DNA of 40,330 nt from Chitinophagales bacterium (GTDB lineage Bacteria > Bacteroidota > Bacteroidia > Chitinophagales > BACL12): the NCBI GenBank assembly GCA_019694895.1, contig JAIBBA010000012.1, positions 1 through 40,330 of the forward strand, in the 5' to 3' direction. A program made the position numbers and the translations under genes. Position 1 is the stretch's first letter. Each line of letters starts with the position of its first letter. A model generated the notes under the pieces. It did no database searches, was not told where the DNA came from, and saw only the letters and a program-made list of their open reading frames with translations. This document shows positions 5,366-15,907 of the stretch, one piece after another.

Positions 5366-7030
5366 TTAGAATTGAAAATAAATGAAGGGCTGCATGTCGG
5401 CACTTACAGCCTGGTAGAGCAAGAAGATATAACCTATTAAAATTGCGACCAAAGCCGGTTCTGAGCGCGTAGCAAACCACTCACGGTATTGTTGTTTTGT
5501 GCTTTCCGGAATCCAGTGGATAAGATAGCCAACTACAATCACTGATAATACCGTGCGATACCCCCACAATACATTTTCTATCAATTCGCCACCGAAATGA
5601 TGACTGATGCGATCAAAAATGATGCCTACCGTATCGAGGCTATCGCTTCGGAACCAAATCCGCGTAAAACTGATGAATACCAATGTTAGAAAAATCGCAA
5701 ATGGTCTATATCCGACACCTGAAGTATTTTTGATTGGATTAATTCGCTCCCAGCCTTTGTGCAACATCAATCCTAAGCCATTCAACCCGCCCCAAATAAT
5801 AAACATCCAGCTGCTTCCATGCCATAAACCACCTAGCAACATGGTAACCAAAATATTGATATTGGTATTTACAGAATGTCGAAACTTTGGAAATATTCTT
5901 GCGATTAAAATTAATACTAAGGCAATCGCCAACAAGATGTAAATCAAGGTGACATTACCATATAATAATACCATAAATATTCCCAGAATCGATATCGCAA
6001 CATAGGAACCCACTGTTCCATTTCTGTTCCCTCCCAAAGGAATATAGAGGTATTCTTTTAACCAGCTCGACAAGGATATATGCCAACGCTTCCAAAATTC
6101 ACTTGTGCTTTCAGCTTTGTACGGCGATCTAAAATTCGTTTTCAATCTGAATCCTAATAATAATGCAATGCCAATGGCCATATCTGTATAGCCGCTGAAA
6201 TCGGCATATATCTGAAGGCTGTATCCGAATATGCCAAGCACCACTTCTACGCCGGAATACAATTCAGGATGCGAGAATATACGATCCACGAAATTGACAC
6301 CAACATAATCGGCCATTATCTTTTTGCCCAATCCATTCAATATCCAAAAAAATGCCATTCCATACTCCCTTTTCGAAAGATTATATGGCTGATAAATCTG
6401 GTAAATGAAATCATGTGCTTTTACAATCGGCCCTGCCACCAGGTGCGGGAAAAAACAAACAAAAAATCCATAATCGAATATGTTTTTCACAGGCTCAAGC
6501 TTCCTGCGATACATATCGATAGTATACGACAGCGATTGAAAAGTAAAGAATGAAATACCGATTGGCAGTATGAGTTTATCTACTGAGAATGAAGTACCAA
6601 ACCATGTATTTGTAAAATGCGCGAAATGATTAAAGAAAGTTATATCCGTGCCGGCAACTTCATTTAAATTTTCGGTAAAGAAAAACGCATATTTAAAATA
6701 ACATAGTAAAGTTAAATTCAACACCACGCTGAATGTGAGGAACATCCTTCGTTTCCAGGGCGTTTCTGTCTTTGCAAGCAGTCGACCCCAGTTATAGTCG
6801 CTGATGATAGTAAAAATGAGGAGGATAAGAAAGACACCACTGGTTTGATAATAGAAAAAGAAACTCGCTGCCAGCAGATAAATGGTTCGGACATTTACTT
6901 TTTTATATACGAATGAATATCCAAGCAACACAACTGCAAAGAATGCCCAGAAAAACAAACGTGTAAAGATCAACGGATTTTCCGGATCATAAGATAACCA
7001 ATGTACAATATTGCTAAAAATGTTATTCAA
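5366..7030 (-). CDS. MBOAT family membrane O-acyltransferase
   Basis: A 554-residue polytopic membrane protein with about ten or more hydrophobic segments, of the MBOAT family (AlgI, DltB and PatA are relatives). The signature FWKRWHISLSSWLKEYLY is near residues 311-328, and the conserved histidine motif LWHGSSW lies near 404. Characterised relatives move acyl groups, often acetyl, across the inner membrane so that a periplasmic partner can esterify a glycan. The start is TTG at 7028-7030: an in-frame TAA lies 6 nt upstream and no ATG follows for about 90 codons, so a non-ATG start is required. The gene begins 6 nt after the upstream SGNH gene, last in a three-gene operon. The natural acceptor is not evident. 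Confidence 0.9.
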   Translation of the reverse strand: MNNIFSNIVHWLSYDPENPLIFTRLFFWAFFAVVLLGYSFVYKKVNVRTIYLLAASFFFYYQTSGVFLILLIFTIISDYNWGRLLAKTETPWKRRMFLTFSVVLNLTLLCYFKYAFFFTENLNEVAGTDITFFNHFAHFTNTWFGTSFSVDKLILPIGISFFTFQSLSYTIDMYRRKLEPVKNIFDYGFFVCFFPHLVAGPIVKAHDFIYQIYQPYNLSKREYGMAFFWILNGLGKKIMADYVGVNFVDRIFSHPELYSGVEVVLGIFGYSLQIYADFSGYTDMAIGIALLLGFRLKTNFRSPYKAESTSEFWKRWHISLSSWLKEYLYIPLGGNRNGTVGSYVAISILGIFMVLLYGNVTLIYILLAIALVLILIARIFPKFRHSVNTNINILVTMLLGGLWHGSSWMFIIWGGLNGLGLMLHKGWERINPIKNTSGVGYRPFAIFLTLVFISFTRIWFRSDSLDTVGIIFDRISHHFGGELIENVLWGYRTVLSVIVVGYLIHWIPESTKQQYREWFATRSEPALVAILIGYIFLLYQAVSADMQPFIYFQF

Positions 7031-7036
7031 TGCGAA

Positions 7037-8251
7037 TTACTTTGATAATGTGGTATTATACATGTAGCTGTCTTTAATTGCACTGAACATCAAGCCTGCC
7101 GCAATTCCATACCCTTTAGCATTAAAATGTATTCTATCCGGCGCAGCCAAACCATTGCGATACCATTTATCGATACTCCCTAGTCCGCCCATTACGGTAA
7201 ACATATCCCAAACACCGGCGTTATATTTTTGTGCAACAGCCATTATTTGTGCGTTCACTTTTAGACTCCTGGTATTTTTTGTTTTTCGCTTAATGTAGTT
7301 ATCTGTGATGGTAGTAAAAAGTATCGCGCAATCAGGATTTATTGCTCTCACTATGGCACAAATGGAATCATAACGCGCAAAGAAATCAGGTAAAACAAGG
7401 TCGGCATCTTGGGCATCATTAACGCCAATAGAAAAAATCACCAAATCTGGATGTAAGGTGCCAAGCTCTTTAACAAATTCGGTGCATTGCAAGTAAGACC
7501 TTGTGCTGGCGCCGTTTACACCCATCGACGCGTAATATACTCCGGGATTTTCATTTTCAATACTCCATCCACGTAAAATAAAATCAGATCGTGTTGATGA
7601 ATTTCTATGTATATCGAAATGCACAGAATCTACAGGTGTCTGAAAGTGAAATTGCACATATCCCAGTTCAGGGTAATCATGTCGCAAATAAGTAGCAGGG
7701 AAATCCTTCGGCACTTCTATAACATAATCAGGATTAAAGTTGTGATATACTCTGATATAGGTAAATGAATTGATATGGTCATTAGGTCGAAGTTGAAATC
7801 CGAATGATGCTATGCTATCACTTGTTGTTGCAGAGATTCCACTCATTCCCAATCCGCTGCACATTTCAGAAGGCACTGCTCTACAACGTTTCCATTCACC
7901 TGTGCCATGAGAGCGATAGAACGGCGGTCCATTTGTTTTAATTAGCCGATAGGGAAATAAATATGCTCCACCTCCTACATACCCGCCTAATGCCTGGAAA
8001 CTATCCGCAAGCGCCTCTGTCCAATAGCCCGCCTGAATATGAGATCCACCATAATGCGCAATTGTCAGTCGAGATGTATCACCTTTTTTTAGGGCATCTA
8101 ATTTGGCAAAAAATTTCAGCATACTCGCACTATCGCCCGGATAAATGATCCTGCTGGTATCATATTTTATGAACGGATAACTTGTTTGTGCATTAATGCT
8201 TCCAAACATCATCAACATTCCAAGTAGTAGTATCGTCTGTCGCATGTTCAT
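7037..8251 (-). CDS. Exported SGNH/GDSL-like protein with altered block I
   Basis: A 404-residue exported protein with a signal peptide (about residues 1-22, ending INAQ). It has the SGNH-hydrolase layout: block I HYGGSHIQAG near residue 67, block III SIGVNDAQ in the middle, and block V PDRIHFNAKGYG near the C terminus with the Asp-x-x-His pair. Block I reads GGSH, so the aspartate of GDS is replaced by glycine while the serine is kept. It starts inside the end of the preceding SGNH gene (ATGA, 4-nt overlap) and is followed 6 nt later by the MBOAT gene. By analogy with AlgX/AlgJ or PatB it probably transfers or removes acyl groups on a periplasmic or surface glycan; this is inferred from context. 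Confidence 0.82.
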   Translation of the reverse strand: MNMRQTILLLGMLMMFGSINAQTSYPFIKYDTSRIIYPGDSASMLKFFAKLDALKKGDTSRLTIAHYGGSHIQAGYWTEALADSFQALGGYVGGGAYLFPYRLIKTNGPPFYRSHGTGEWKRCRAVPSEMCSGLGMSGISATTSDSIASFGFQLRPNDHINSFTYIRVYHNFNPDYVIEVPKDFPATYLRHDYPELGYVQFHFQTPVDSVHFDIHRNSSTRSDFILRGWSIENENPGVYYASMGVNGASTRSYLQCTEFVKELGTLHPDLVIFSIGVNDAQDADLVLPDFFARYDSICAIVRAINPDCAILFTTITDNYIKRKTKNTRSLKVNAQIMAVAQKYNAGVWDMFTVMGGLGSIDKWYRNGLAAPDRIHFNAKGYGIAAGLMFSAIKDSYMYNTTLSK

Positions 8252-9705
8252 ATACTCTCTCTGATCACATAATTATTATATTCTTTCATCATTGCCTGGT
8301 ATAATAAAATGGCAATTTTGCGTGCTCCTTCAGGGCTAAAGTGAATATAGTCTTTGGTAGCAATTCCTGCATTCACCCATGCCACCATACTATTTTTTCC
8401 GCCCATTGCAGCATACATATCGTAGTAAGCTGCGCCTGCACGAAAGGCTGCATTTTTAAGCTCAGTGTTTAATATTTCAAGCAGGGGATGTGTCACATAT
8501 GTTGTTCCTTCCTTTACACTCATATCTGCAGGGCCAACAAATAATATACTCGCACCCGGAGCTAACCATTTCATGGTATTGATCTGCGATTCAATAGATT
8601 GAGCGTATTTAATACATCCTGCCTCATCCTTGAGATATGGTAACGCGTTACCTCCGAATTGCATGATGATCAAACGGACATCCATTTGATCATAGTAACC
8701 TTTCAATTGCGACTGGTTCATGCCTGTAAAAAAATTCCCGGAGCTTCCACGCAGGGCAAGATTATCCACTATTACACCACCGTTTCCCTCCAAAGACAAG
8801 CCATAAATATCCGGACTGTCACGACCTTCAAAATTTAATTGGAAATTTCCCGGAGCTGCGGCGAGAGCAAATTCCTGAATATTATGATCACCGCCAACGC
8901 TCAGTGTATCTGTTGCTATTAATACATCATCGGCAAGCAATTCAACTTTTACAGGATCTGTAGCATTGCCGTACAATAATTTGACATATCGATAATTTGC
9001 CAATCTGGCGCCACCATTTTTGTTCGTAGTGATCTTTAACCAGGCACTATGTTGGCTACCAAGAGCATGTGTTGTATCCCTTACCGGCATAAACCTGCTA
9101 AATGCTGCATTAGGACCAAAACTTCGATGCGGCACTCGTTTATCTCTATTGGTAAAAGTGGTATATCTGTCCCAACTTCCACTCCAGCTATTTTTTACCG
9201 CAACGAAATCAGCAATAGGCATAACGGAGATTAGTCCCGGACCGGAGCCGCCAAATTGGGACTGAAGCCTGGCTCTGAGGTATCCGGTAATTCTATCGAC
9301 CTCGATCTGTGAATCGCCATAGTGCATCACCCTAACCCGAGAGCCATCAGATGCTGTTTTATAAAGTGATGCATAAAAATTATCCATCGCTTCTTTTGTG
9401 CCGAATTGAATTGGTGTAACGATGGCAACTCCTGAATCCAATTGAACGAGTCCTTTGATATTTGCAGTGTCAATCACTTTGGCAACAACTTCCGTGGTAT
9501 CGTCGCCGGCATCGATTGAGACAATATTACTGATGTCAGCAGAAGTAGTGTCAGACTCAAATATAGATGCTAACGTAGGAAATCGCAAGGCAACATTTTT
9601 CCCTAAGTGGATGCCTTTTTCCGGAAATACAGCACTCACAGCGCCCAGTGCGACGAAACATATGGCCAGAAATGCCAATATCCTAAGAGGCGTGATGTTG
9701 CTCAT
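8248..9705 (-). CDS. Membrane-anchored SGNH/GDSL-like esterase or acyltransferase
   Basis: A 485-residue protein with one N-terminal hydrophobic segment (about residues 7-27), acting as an uncleaved anchor or signal. A linker of about 100 residues precedes an SGNH domain with canonical block I HYGDSQIE, block III QFGGNALPY and a C-terminal block V KDYIHFSPEGA carrying the Asp/His pair. A beta-rich insert occupies roughly residues 220-310. It resembles its downstream neighbour in the block I region (DSQIEVD versus GSHIQAG) and is probably a diverged paralogue. It is the first gene of the SGNH-SGNH-MBOAT operon and overlaps the next by 4 nt. No exact TAnnTTTG was found upstream; TAATTTTA, 15 bp before the ATG, is a near match. 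Function is inferred from the MBOAT partner. Confidence 0.82.
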   Translation of the reverse strand: MSNITPLRILAFLAICFVALGAVSAVFPEKGIHLGKNVALRFPTLASIFESDTTSADISNIVSIDAGDDTTEVVAKVIDTANIKGLVQLDSGVAIVTPIQFGTKEAMDNFYASLYKTASDGSRVRVMHYGDSQIEVDRITGYLRARLQSQFGGSGPGLISVMPIADFVAVKNSWSGSWDRYTTFTNRDKRVPHRSFGPNAAFSRFMPVRDTTHALGSQHSAWLKITTNKNGGARLANYRYVKLLYGNATDPVKVELLADDVLIATDTLSVGGDHNIQEFALAAAPGNFQLNFEGRDSPDIYGLSLEGNGGVIVDNLALRGSSGNFFTGMNQSQLKGYYDQMDVRLIIMQFGGNALPYLKDEAGCIKYAQSIESQINTMKWLAPGASILFVGPADMSVKEGTTYVTHPLLEILNTELKNAAFRAGAAYYDMYAAMGGKNSMVAWVNAGIATKDYIHFSPEGARKIAILLYQAMMKEYNNYVIRESI

Positions 9706-13091: not shown

Positions 13092-13979
13092 TTAATCGTT
13101 ATCAGGGTGCATCAATACTTGTAGTGCTTCCGGCATAATCTCAATTTTAAAAGATTTATCCTTTGGTGCTGTTTCTCCGTCAATTTGCAAGTGAGCATAT
13201 TGAGGCGTATCTATTGTTAAGGAAGGTGTTTTATAAATAGTAAAATGCTTAGTATGCATATGCGTTCTGGTGAATACCTGCAATACCACCAATGGAATTT
13301 TCCATTTCGGAATATCACCCAGTACGATCACATCAAGCATACCATCGCTTAAACTGGCATGTGGCGCCACTTTTACATTATAACCGTATTGATTTGAATT
13401 GCACACATTAATCATAAACGCTTTGCCACCAATTTTCCTATCGGCAAGATTGGCACTATATTCAAAAGCATCAAATGCTGAAACACTTTTAATTGCACTC
13501 CAAGCGTAAGTCAGAAATCCACGTGTTTCCTCACGGCTAAACACTTTAGCAACAAATGCATCAAAACCAATACCTATCAAGCTGAAAAACATGGTGCCAT
13601 TTACCTTACACACATCTATTTTACGAACATGATAGGCATTAATAATATTTATAGTAGAGCGAATATTAATTGAGTATCCCAGATGTCTGGCAAGACCATT
13701 ACCGGATCCGCTAGGGATAATTGCCAAACAAGTATTCGTGCCGATCAAACCGGTTGCGGCCTCATTTACACTTCCATCTCCACCTGCAACGGCAACCACA
13801 TGCACACCGCGTGCTGCAGCTTCAGCAGCAATTTGTGTAGCGTGACCCCGACGTTCGGTATAGATTACTTCATAATCAAAATGTGAATGGTCTAAATATT
13901 TATCTATCAAACGAGGGATACGATCCTTGCGTTTGACCCCAGCAACCGGGTTAATAATAAACAGAATGTGCTTTTTCAC
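13092..13979 (-). CDS. Diacylglycerol kinase family lipid kinase
   Basis: A 295-residue soluble lipid kinase of the DagK/YegS/DgkB fold. Seen in sequence: NPVAG at 10-14, the nucleotide-binding GGDGS at 66-70 followed by VNEA, and PSGSGNGLARHLG at 89-101; the C-terminal half has DGMLDVIVL and QIDGE, typical of the lipid-binding domain. It phosphorylates a lipid such as diacylglycerol to phosphatidic acid at the inner membrane face. It overlaps the upstream phosphoglycerol-transferase gene by 4 nt, so the two are probably translationally coupled. Since that enzyme class releases diacylglycerol, recycling of this product is the likely job (inferred). Sphingoid or other lipid substrates cannot be excluded. 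Confidence 0.9.
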   Translation of the reverse strand: MKKHILFIINPVAGVKRKDRIPRLIDKYLDHSHFDYEVIYTERRGHATQIAAEAAARGVHVVAVAGGDGSVNEAATGLIGTNTCLAIIPSGSGNGLARHLGYSINIRSTINIINAYHVRKIDVCKVNGTMFFSLIGIGFDAFVAKVFSREETRGFLTYAWSAIKSVSAFDAFEYSANLADRKIGGKAFMINVCNSNQYGYNVKVAPHASLSDGMLDVIVLGDIPKWKIPLVVLQVFTRTHMHTKHFTIYKTPSLTIDTPQYAHLQIDGETAPKDKSFKIEIMPEALQVLMHPDND

Positions 13980-15907
13980 TCTGCCACCAGTTTGTTGTTG
14001 ATCATAGCATGGTGGTGTATCTGAATGATAGCCTTTATTCGATCTTCCATGCTCGCAGTAATGTCTGGAAACTCATGCATCTGATTATTACTCAAAGTGC
14101 TATCTATCTTATAATCATACAAACCCACCGGGCGATCGCCATTGAATATCAAAGCAAAATCTTTATCCAGTAACATATAATCCGAGGTATGATAATTGTA
14201 TGCATATCGCGCTGCGGTTGTATCAAAAACAGAATTACCAAAGGCCATATATTTTCCTTTATAGCCAACATAATCTAAAACCGTAGGCATGATATCAGAT
14301 TGCTGAACCACCTCAGAATTCACTCCTTTAAATTGCCCGTTGGGTTTGTACATCAACAACCACGTAGAATGTGCCCCAACTTGCTCCTGATAAAATTCAT
14401 GTTCAGGCAACGGAGGTCCGGGATGATCGGCAGTGATGATAAATAATGTGTTGTTATACCAAGGTTGCTTTTTCGCTTCCTCGAAAAACTGCTGAAGTGC
14501 ATAATCAGCATAGCCAACAACCTCCAACATCGGAATAGGACCTTTGGGAAACTGACCTACATGCTGTGCCGGTACTGTGAATGGGTGATGCGATGAAATT
14601 GTAAATATTTCAGAATAAAATGGCGCTTTTAAGGTTGTCATTTTATTGGCAGTCCATTTCAAAAACGGCTCATCAAATATTCCCCAGTTACCATCAAAAT
14701 CTGCATCATTACCATATTCATTTCTTCCGAAATATCCGTCAAATCCGGCCTGAGCCATAAACCTGTCGAACTGCATGGAACCATTATTCGCTCCATGGAA
14801 GAAATAGGATGAATAGCCGACATCTTTCAATAAGGTACCAACACCTTCAAATTTATTATTTCTATAAATGGATGAAATAAAGGGCTCTTCCATTAAAACA
14901 GGGATTCCACTTGTAACGGCAACAATCCCTTGATTTGACGATTTCCCATTGCTATAAGCATTGTCGAATGCCATACCTACCGTTAATAAAGAATCCAGAA
15001 ATGGTGTATACCCATGGCCGTGATTAAAGTATCCGATATATTCCTTTGAAAAGCTTTCTAATACAATAACGCATACATTTTCAGGTTTAGATGGCTTGGC
15101 AATTGAATCAGGCCACTGATAATAAAGTGCGTTATCGTGAAAAATATTAAACTGCTTTGCCAATTCCTGTTCATCCTCATAATAAACGGGCTCAACTAGT
15201 TGCCTGTGGCCGAACGCGTAAATTACAGAGAATGGCGTATTGATAATCAAAGATGTGAGTCTTCCATCATCAACATAATCTGTTGCAATTTCCGGTGAAA
15301 TAGGTTCCGGTTGTATACCACCTCTTGCTCCAATCACAGAAAATGTAAGCACCACCACCATGATGATGATCTGATATGGATAATGAATAAAACGTGGTAG
15401 TTTGAAATGCACTTTTTTAAGTCGATGCAATTCTGTTTTTCGGTAGAGATATTCAACTCCTAAAATCAGTATAAAGGCAATGACAAAAATTATCCAGTAA
15501 TCTTTAATTACCTGCGGAAGAATATTTGTATCACCTGTAAGTCCGAGTTCGTGCGTTGATGTTCTTTTTAATCCATATTCATAATAGATCCAATCGCCAC
15601 TCTCCAATAATAACCCAACGCCATTAAAAGAATAAAAAATGATCTTCAACATGCGCTGATACCAATTTTTATCGAACCATGGACTTGGAACTACATGCAA
15701 TACTATAAATATGCAGTTCACATAAATGATACTCGACAAGTCGAAACGGAGACCATACAACATCAGCTGCAAAAACTCTCCCGGAGGTATGTGCGGGAAA
15801 AGTGCCATATTAAACAGAAAGAACAGTATACGGCAAACCATATACAACAGCAGGAGAATGCCCAAGCGTTTGAGCAATATCTCAATATGGAACAGTTGTT
15901 CTTTCAT
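13976..15907 (-). CDS. LTA synthase-like phosphoglycerol transferase (sulfatase fold)
   Basis: A 643-residue protein with about five N-terminal transmembrane segments (residues 1-200) and an extracytoplasmic alkaline-phosphatase/sulfatase domain, the layout of LtaS and OpgB. Metal and catalytic positions are visible: VIVLESFSKE near 279-288, NGKSSNQG near 320 (a serine at the place of the nucleophilic threonine of LtaS), TADHPGP near 491, and a further histidine in GAHSTW near 510. LtaS-type enzymes move glycerol phosphate from phosphatidylglycerol to an acceptor and release diacylglycerol. It ends overlapping a diacylglycerol kinase gene by 4 nt. As the cell makes lipid A, the acceptor is unlikely to be classical lipoteichoic acid. 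Phosphoethanolamine transfer is an alternative. Confidence 0.85.
   Translation of the reverse strand: MKEQLFHIEILLKRLGILLLLYMVCRILFFLFNMALFPHIPPGEFLQLMLYGLRFDLSSIIYVNCIFIVLHVVPSPWFDKNWYQRMLKIIFYSFNGVGLLLESGDWIYYEYGLKRTSTHELGLTGDTNILPQVIKDYWIIFVIAFILILGVEYLYRKTELHRLKKVHFKLPRFIHYPYQIIIMVVVLTFSVIGARGGIQPEPISPEIATDYVDDGRLTSLIINTPFSVIYAFGHRQLVEPVYYEDEQELAKQFNIFHDNALYYQWPDSIAKPSKPENVCVIVLESFSKEYIGYFNHGHGYTPFLDSLLTVGMAFDNAYSNGKSSNQGIVAVTSGIPVLMEEPFISSIYRNNKFEGVGTLLKDVGYSSYFFHGANNGSMQFDRFMAQAGFDGYFGRNEYGNDADFDGNWGIFDEPFLKWTANKMTTLKAPFYSEIFTISSHHPFTVPAQHVGQFPKGPIPMLEVVGYADYALQQFFEEAKKQPWYNNTLFIITADHPGPPLPEHEFYQEQVGAHSTWLLMYKPNGQFKGVNSEVVQQSDIMPTVLDYVGYKGKYMAFGNSVFDTTAARYAYNYHTSDYMLLDKDFALIFNGDRPVGLYDYKIDSTLSNNQMHEFPDITASMEDRIKAIIQIHHHAMINNKLVAE

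Follow-up and report, generated by a model that had tools for sequence, protein, structure and literature searches.

The operon studied here, which encodes two SGNH-type proteins and an MBOAT acyltransferase, is very probably the Bacteroidota cluster for peptidoglycan O-acetylation and de-O-acetylation (OAP cluster). This high confidence applies to the peptidoglycan reading and not to the split of roles between the two SGNH proteins; the alternative in which these roles are swapped is a variant within the same reading. The operon lies in the window, i.e., the whole stretch of 40,330 nucleotides analyzed, which is one contig of a 3.3-Mb Bacteroidota assembly with 235 contigs.

RESULTS

Layout of the operon

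The original prediction placed two SGNH-type genes and an MBOAT gene at positions 5366 to 9705, joined by a 4-nt overlap and a 6-nt gap, and the open reading frames and Pfam matches confirm this. The features are as follows:

8248..9705, minus strand: SGNHa, 485 amino acids, ATG start; membrane-anchored Ape1-type SGNH protein, by position Ape1b (Weadge 2005)
8248..8251, minus strand: 4-nt overlap of the SGNHa stop and the SGNHb start, translational coupling; median gap of -4 in 42 loci of relatives
7037..8251, minus strand: SGNHb, 404 amino acids, ATG start; exported Ape1-type SGNH protein with a beta-rich insert, by position Ape1c
5366..7030, minus strand: MBOAT acyltransferase (PatA/DltB/AlgI type), 554 amino acids, TTG start; PF03062
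5369..5386, minus strand: C-terminal hexapeptide FIYFQF of the MBOAT protein with Tyr551, the presumed acetyl-tyrosine shuttle

All three genes run head to tail, with 6 nt (7031-7036) separating SGNHb from MBOAT. The MBOAT protein matched PF03062 (E = 9.6e-23) and both SGNH proteins matched Lipase_GDSL_2 (PF13472; E = 5e-17 for SGNHb and 2.8e-8 for SGNHa), in each case above the curated cut-off. The proposal of a single transcription unit is supported. Downstream of the operon lies a gene for the DNA polymerase III alpha subunit, and the divergent propeller protein encoded upstream carries a type IX sorting tail. As predicted, no polysaccharide or glycan synthesis genes adjoin the operon among the open reading frames of the window. 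Likewise, the window's own operon contains no other peptidoglycan gene; the peptidoglycan-linked neighbors described below come from relatives. Elsewhere in the window, positions 13092-15907 encode an LtaS/OpgB-like membrane protein of the sulfatase family (LtaS model, E = 1.7e-28, below the cut-off), whose gene overlaps that of a diacylglycerol-kinase-like lipid kinase by 4 nt.

Folds and catalytic residues of the SGNH proteins

The N terminus of SGNHa was modeled as a hydrophobic helix (residues 6-26; peak Kyte-Doolittle value, 2.7) and has no lipobox, and that of SGNHb is signal-peptide-like. Both proteins have the Ser-His-Asp triad together with the oxyanion Gly and Asn. In SGNHa, Ser132, Gly320, Asn353, Asp452, and His455 are conserved among 134 homologues, and the corresponding residues of SGNHb (Ser70, Gly247, Asn278, Asp372, and His375) are almost invariant among 128. 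SGNHb had been regarded as a variant SGNH protein in the original prediction, and its block I indeed reads GGSH instead of GDSH. However, this is not a loss: the second residue is D in 109 and G in 17 of the 128 homologues, and the catalytic residues are kept. Judged from these residues, SGNHb is predicted to be catalytically complete despite GGSH. The idea that GGSH marks a dead enzyme was rejected, since the remaining catalytic residues are conserved across the SGNHb homologues.

AlphaFold models of the two proteins (pLDDT of 87.7 and 78.7) were compared with the PDB by using Foldseek. For both models, the top five matches were peptidoglycan O-acetylesterases, namely, Ape1 of Neisseria (4k3u) and Campylobacter (8gkd/8gld). 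SGNHb matched Ape1 with an E value of ~1e-26 (TMt, 0.78 to 0.81), with the next match at ~1e-7, and SGNHa matched Ape1 (4k3u/8gkd) with an E value of ~1e-20, with the next match at ~1e-8; thus, Ape1 leads by 12 to 19 orders of magnitude. The fold alignments of both proteins are nearly full length (373 to 398 columns) and include the CBM35-like insert. Between Ser132 and block II, SGNHa has a beta-rich insert, and such an insert is also present in the SGNHb of the window. Sequence profiles agreed, with E values against Ape1 of 6.5e-42 for SGNHb (NmApe1) and 6.7e-35 for SGNHa. Neither PatB nor AlgX/AlgJ was found among the sequence matches or the 50 best fold matches of the two proteins, and neither protein had an AlgX/DHHW Pfam match. 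Searches of the whole genome with the AlgX and DHHW profiles also gave no match, but the search controls were silent, too, so that these negatives carry no weight by themselves.

The MBOAT protein and its C-terminal tyrosine

His317 and His404 of the MBOAT protein are invariant in 122/122 homologues, and Tyr551 is invariant in all 120 homologues with an intact C terminus, where the hexapeptide follows the pattern [FP]IY[FL]QF (e.g., FIYFQF or PIYLQF). PatA has FIYANF at the same motif position, and its C-terminal tyrosine undergoes auto-acetylation and supplies PatB, the SGNH partner (PMC12148441). Among solved structures, the best match of the MBOAT protein was to DltB chains (E = 1e-18), which would fit a Dlt-like system in which the transferred group is an amino acid or a longer acyl group and not acetyl, as would the weakly matching carrier-protein-like gene and the AMP-binding ligase gene of some related clusters (see below). 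This reading is very unlikely, however: the score with the DltB model TIGR04091 was 120 against a cut-off of 375, no DltA-, DltC-, or DltX-like gene is present among the open reading frames of the window, and it is the MBOAT protein itself that carries the shuttle tyrosine, as in PatA, which uses acetyl-CoA.

The MBOAT protein contains a hydrophobic extra stretch of ~45 residues (around residues 338-385; window positions 5880-6020), which is shared with the orthologue from the same genus and is absent from the other eight orthologues aligned. The genome also encodes a second MBOAT protein (G000:C79; L043:8092-13405), which ends in FIYFAF and whose gene adjoins a MatE/Wzx-type flippase gene and a gene with a weak Wzz-like match; this locus is the likelier polysaccharide acylation system.

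Conservation, gene order, and fusions

Of 119 Bacteroidia genomes sampled from the class, 63 have SGNHa and 66 have SGNHb; the cluster is thus not universal, and nearly half of the sampled genomes are without it. The original prediction had asked whether the three genes are kept together in relatives. They are: 38 of the 68 loci from relatives in the order and class have the order SGNHa-SGNHb-MBOAT, as do 69 of the 80 loci from a broad collection of other genomes, and the loci without that order are mostly split or at contig ends. Therefore, the arrangement is more than chance. GDSL proteins are common in Bacteroidota, and two unrelated GDSL esterases could by accident lie beside an MBOAT gene, but with order and spacing conserved throughout the class and with both SGNHb-MBOAT and SGNHa-SGNHb fusions on record, the probability of this is practically negligible. 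Chance juxtaposition was accordingly rejected on the grounds of synteny.

Members of the cluster occur in Chitinophaga, Hymenobacter, Parabacteroides, Tannerella, and Bacteroides. Bacteroides thetaiotaomicron was not among the loci fetched, and B. fragilis, B. faecis, and B. ihuae stand in for it. The loci of B. fragilis (L209) and B. faecis (L214) have the order SGNHa-SGNHb-MBOAT with an RND efflux gene upstream, and the SGNHb orthologues of Bacteroides are short (~310 amino acids). In three genomes of one Bacteroidia family, SGNHb forms an N-terminal fusion with MBOAT (L107:2654-5500, L131:2294-5200, and L150:2910-5711; 933 to 968 amino acids), with SGNHa separate and upstream. In a metagenome-assembled genome (MAG) of Bacteroides, SGNHa and SGNHb are fused in one open reading frame of 699 amino acids (L239:5710-7809). 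SGNHb and MBOAT remain paired where SGNHa is elsewhere (L136/L135 and L152/L151). In Ignavibacteria, SGNHa and MBOAT occur together with no clear SGNHb, and in two of these cases another, small SGNH gene lies upstream.

Two loci depart further from the common order. One in Ignavibacteriales (L176:4912-10087) has a small GNSL-type SGNH gene, SGNHa, and two tandem MBOAT genes whose products both end in FIYFQF. The order MBOAT-SGNHa-SGNHb occurs in a MAG labelled Oxalobacter (L219), probably as a result of bin contamination or possibly of horizontal transfer.

Peptidoglycan-linked neighbors in relatives

Among 61 co-oriented genes within ~200 nt of the cluster in the loci of relatives, 10 encode SLT lytic transglycosylases, against ~0.06 expected (genomes carry 1 to 4 SLT genes each); the relatives in this count are not independent, and the SLT cases come from several families. 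Four glucosaminidases and three RodA-type proteins are also among the 61. In the genome collection, glucosaminidases make up 11 of 45 upstream genes, with one genus in part counted repeatedly. It is SGNHa that adjoins the transglycosylase gene in relatives. The Ape1 protein of Neisseria forms a complex with the transglycosylase LtgA, and each stimulates the other (PMC7083599), which fits transglycosylases as operon partners in relatives. Moreover, several SGNHb homologues carry a C-terminal LysM domain, one of them encoded in a full SGNHa-SGNHb-MBOAT operon (L140) and two next to RodA. In the latter two (L125:2194-5305 and L142:149-3345), the SGNHb-LysM gene abuts or overlaps the gene for the RodA-type cell wall polymerase, away from any MBOAT gene.

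An open reading frame for a carrier-protein-like polypeptide of 80 amino acids lies beside MBOAT and SGNHb-LysM in L111:1900-8535 and L140:3943-9057, with a weak PP-binding match below the cut-off; L111 additionally encodes an AMP-binding ligase, a GNAT protein, and a DHHW protein. These two clusters are possibly a carrier-dependent, Dlt-like variant of peptidoglycan acylation.

DISCUSSION

The acceptor

Homology, fold, conserved catalytic residues, gene order, and the peptidoglycan-linked neighbors in relatives are direct observations. The MBOAT-SGNH acyl transfer system of the original prediction stands. Its acceptor, which had been left open there, is very probably peptidoglycan because of the Ape1 folds, the operon neighbors in relatives, the LysM-bearing homologues, and the published OAP cluster. 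Peptidoglycan as the acceptor would also explain the lack of an adjoining glycan synthesis cluster. In an alternative reading, the system would be like AlgI/AlgJ/AlgX or Wss and would acetylate an exopolysaccharide or the LPS O chain, with one SGNH protein for transfer and one for presentation, the split that the original prediction gave as an example. Pairing of an MBOAT protein with SGNH proteins and the C-terminal motif are common to AlgI/WssI-type systems. However, polysaccharide genes do not adjoin the operon, both SGNH proteins match Ape1 and not the AlgJ/AlgX folds, the neighbors in relatives are peptidoglycan enzymes, and the second MBOAT locus of the genome, with its flippase and Wzz-like genes, is the likelier polysaccharide system; acetylation of such a polysaccharide is therefore quite unlikely. 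The anticipated division of labor between the SGNH proteins is retained, but a PatB/Ape1-like split into transfer and removal is more likely than an AlgJ/AlgX-like one into transfer and presentation.

Proposed mechanism and the roles of SGNHa and SGNHb

We infer acetyl as the acyl group and, with it, the chemistry, the acceptor position, and the division of roles. The MBOAT protein would take acetyl from cytoplasmic acetyl-CoA by using the invariant His404 and, at the periplasmic face, attach it to Tyr551 in its own C-terminal FIYFQF motif. The active-site serine of one SGNH protein would then accept the acetyl group for transfer to peptidoglycan, presumably to the C6-OH of MurNAc, and the other SGNH protein would remove it, so that lytic transglycosylases and glucosaminidases could cut.

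Since no PatB relative was recognized, one of the two Ape1-type proteins must be the transferase. With moderate confidence, we assign SGNHa as the putative O-acetyltransferase (PatB role) and SGNHb as the putative O-acetylesterase (Ape1 role). SGNHa is favored as the transferase because of its PatB-like membrane anchor, its retention with MBOAT in Ignavibacteria, and the closer similarity of SGNHb to Ape1. The SGNHb family keeps GDSH, NGA, and DxVHF of Ape1, and SGNHb groups with Ape1 against SGNHa in a tree that is unrooted and thus speaks of similarity, not of descent. Furthermore, SGNHb-LysM sits in the order MBOAT-DHHW-SGNHb, a position like that of ape1 in patA-patB-ape1, which counts for SGNHb as the esterase. 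In the active site, both proteins have Gly in block II (Gly320 in SGNHa and Gly247 in SGNHb), where PatB has Ser/Asn, and a hydrophobic residue precedes the catalytic His in NmApe1 as it does in PatB, so that these residues favor neither protein as the transferase.

The roles may instead be swapped, with SGNHb as the acetyltransferase receiving acetyl from the MBOAT protein and SGNHa as an anchored esterase working with the lytic transglycosylases encoded upstream. The fusion of SGNHb to the N terminus of MBOAT, the persistence of the SGNHb-MBOAT pair where SGNHa has moved, and the adjacency of SGNHa to a transglycosylase gene, comparable to Ape1 with LtgA in Neisseria, all speak for this alternative. 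It is set back by the same three points, namely, that SGNHb is the closer relative of Ape1, that SGNHb-LysM occupies the place of ape1 in DHHW-containing clusters, and that Ignavibacteria keep SGNHa-MBOAT without a clear SGNHb, and we hold it as tentative. If SGNHa is the transferase, as we prefer, Bacteroidota would need no PatB to acetylate peptidoglycan: one protein of the Ape1 esterase fold, probably SGNHa, would have turned into a transferase, and transferase and esterase would be old paralogues catalyzing opposite reactions, with SGNH and MBOAT fused in some lineages. We consider this picture reasonably likely.

Significance

Through O-acetylation of peptidoglycan, autolysins are controlled and lysozyme is blocked. 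About half of the Bacteroidia genomes sampled have the cluster, which shows linkage to lytic transglycosylases and glucosaminidases, and the lack of a recognizable PatB poses a phylum-wide question: which Ape1-type protein is the transferase? Bacteroides peptidoglycan is heavily O-acetylated (69% in B. fragilis and 27% in B. thetaiotaomicron [PMC1199599]), yet the Bacteroidota enzymes have apparently not been studied since they were predicted in 2005. We found no assayed enzyme of the Bacteroidota type in the literature, and in the literature searched, the name Ape1b occurs only in the report of Weadge et al. (2005).

Comparison with known systems

The operon shares with DltABCD-X a DltB-like MBOAT protein, a membrane-anchored SGNH protein, and a shuttle motif of the FxYxxF type, but it is without ligase, carrier, and DltX, and the motif is fused to the MBOAT protein. 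With AlgI-AlgJ-AlgF-AlgX, it has in common an MBOAT protein and two SGNH proteins; however, the SGNH folds are of the Ape1 type, and neither AlgF nor polysaccharide genes are present. PatA-PatB-Ape1 of Neisseria and Campylobacter is nearer, with three genes, an MBOAT protein with the acetyl-Tyr motif, and an Ape1-type SGNH protein with a CBM35-like insert. In the window, however, there are two Ape1-type proteins and no recognized PatB-type SGNH protein, neither protein having the block II Ser/Asn of PatB, and the SGNH genes are upstream of the MBOAT gene and not downstream of it.

The closest counterpart is the OAP cluster of Bacteroidetes (B. thetaiotaomicron, B. fragilis, and Porphyromonas gingivalis), in which, as in the window, two Ape1-type SGNH genes are followed by an MBOAT gene on one strand. 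Thus, the arrangement is not new but was already described in 2005, when ape1b-ape1c-pat was predicted to be an OAP cluster in Bacteroides and Porphyromonas (Weadge et al. 2005; PMC1199599). A cation-efflux transporter gene neighbors the published Bacteroides cluster, Ape1b has a segment of ~100 amino acids after motif I, and Ape1c is without it (PMC1199599). Unlike that cluster, the window operon has no adjoining efflux pump, nor does a peptidoglycan enzyme gene adjoin it. The insert after Ser132 in SGNHa matches the segment of Ape1b, whereas SGNHb keeps a beta-rich insert of ~100 amino acids that Bacteroides Ape1c does not have, so that the label 1c holds by position only and not by architecture. 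The loci of B. fragilis and B. faecis agree with the published cluster in gene order, short SGNHb, and upstream efflux pump, and they are homologous to the window operon, which is a well-supported further case of a known, little-studied system.
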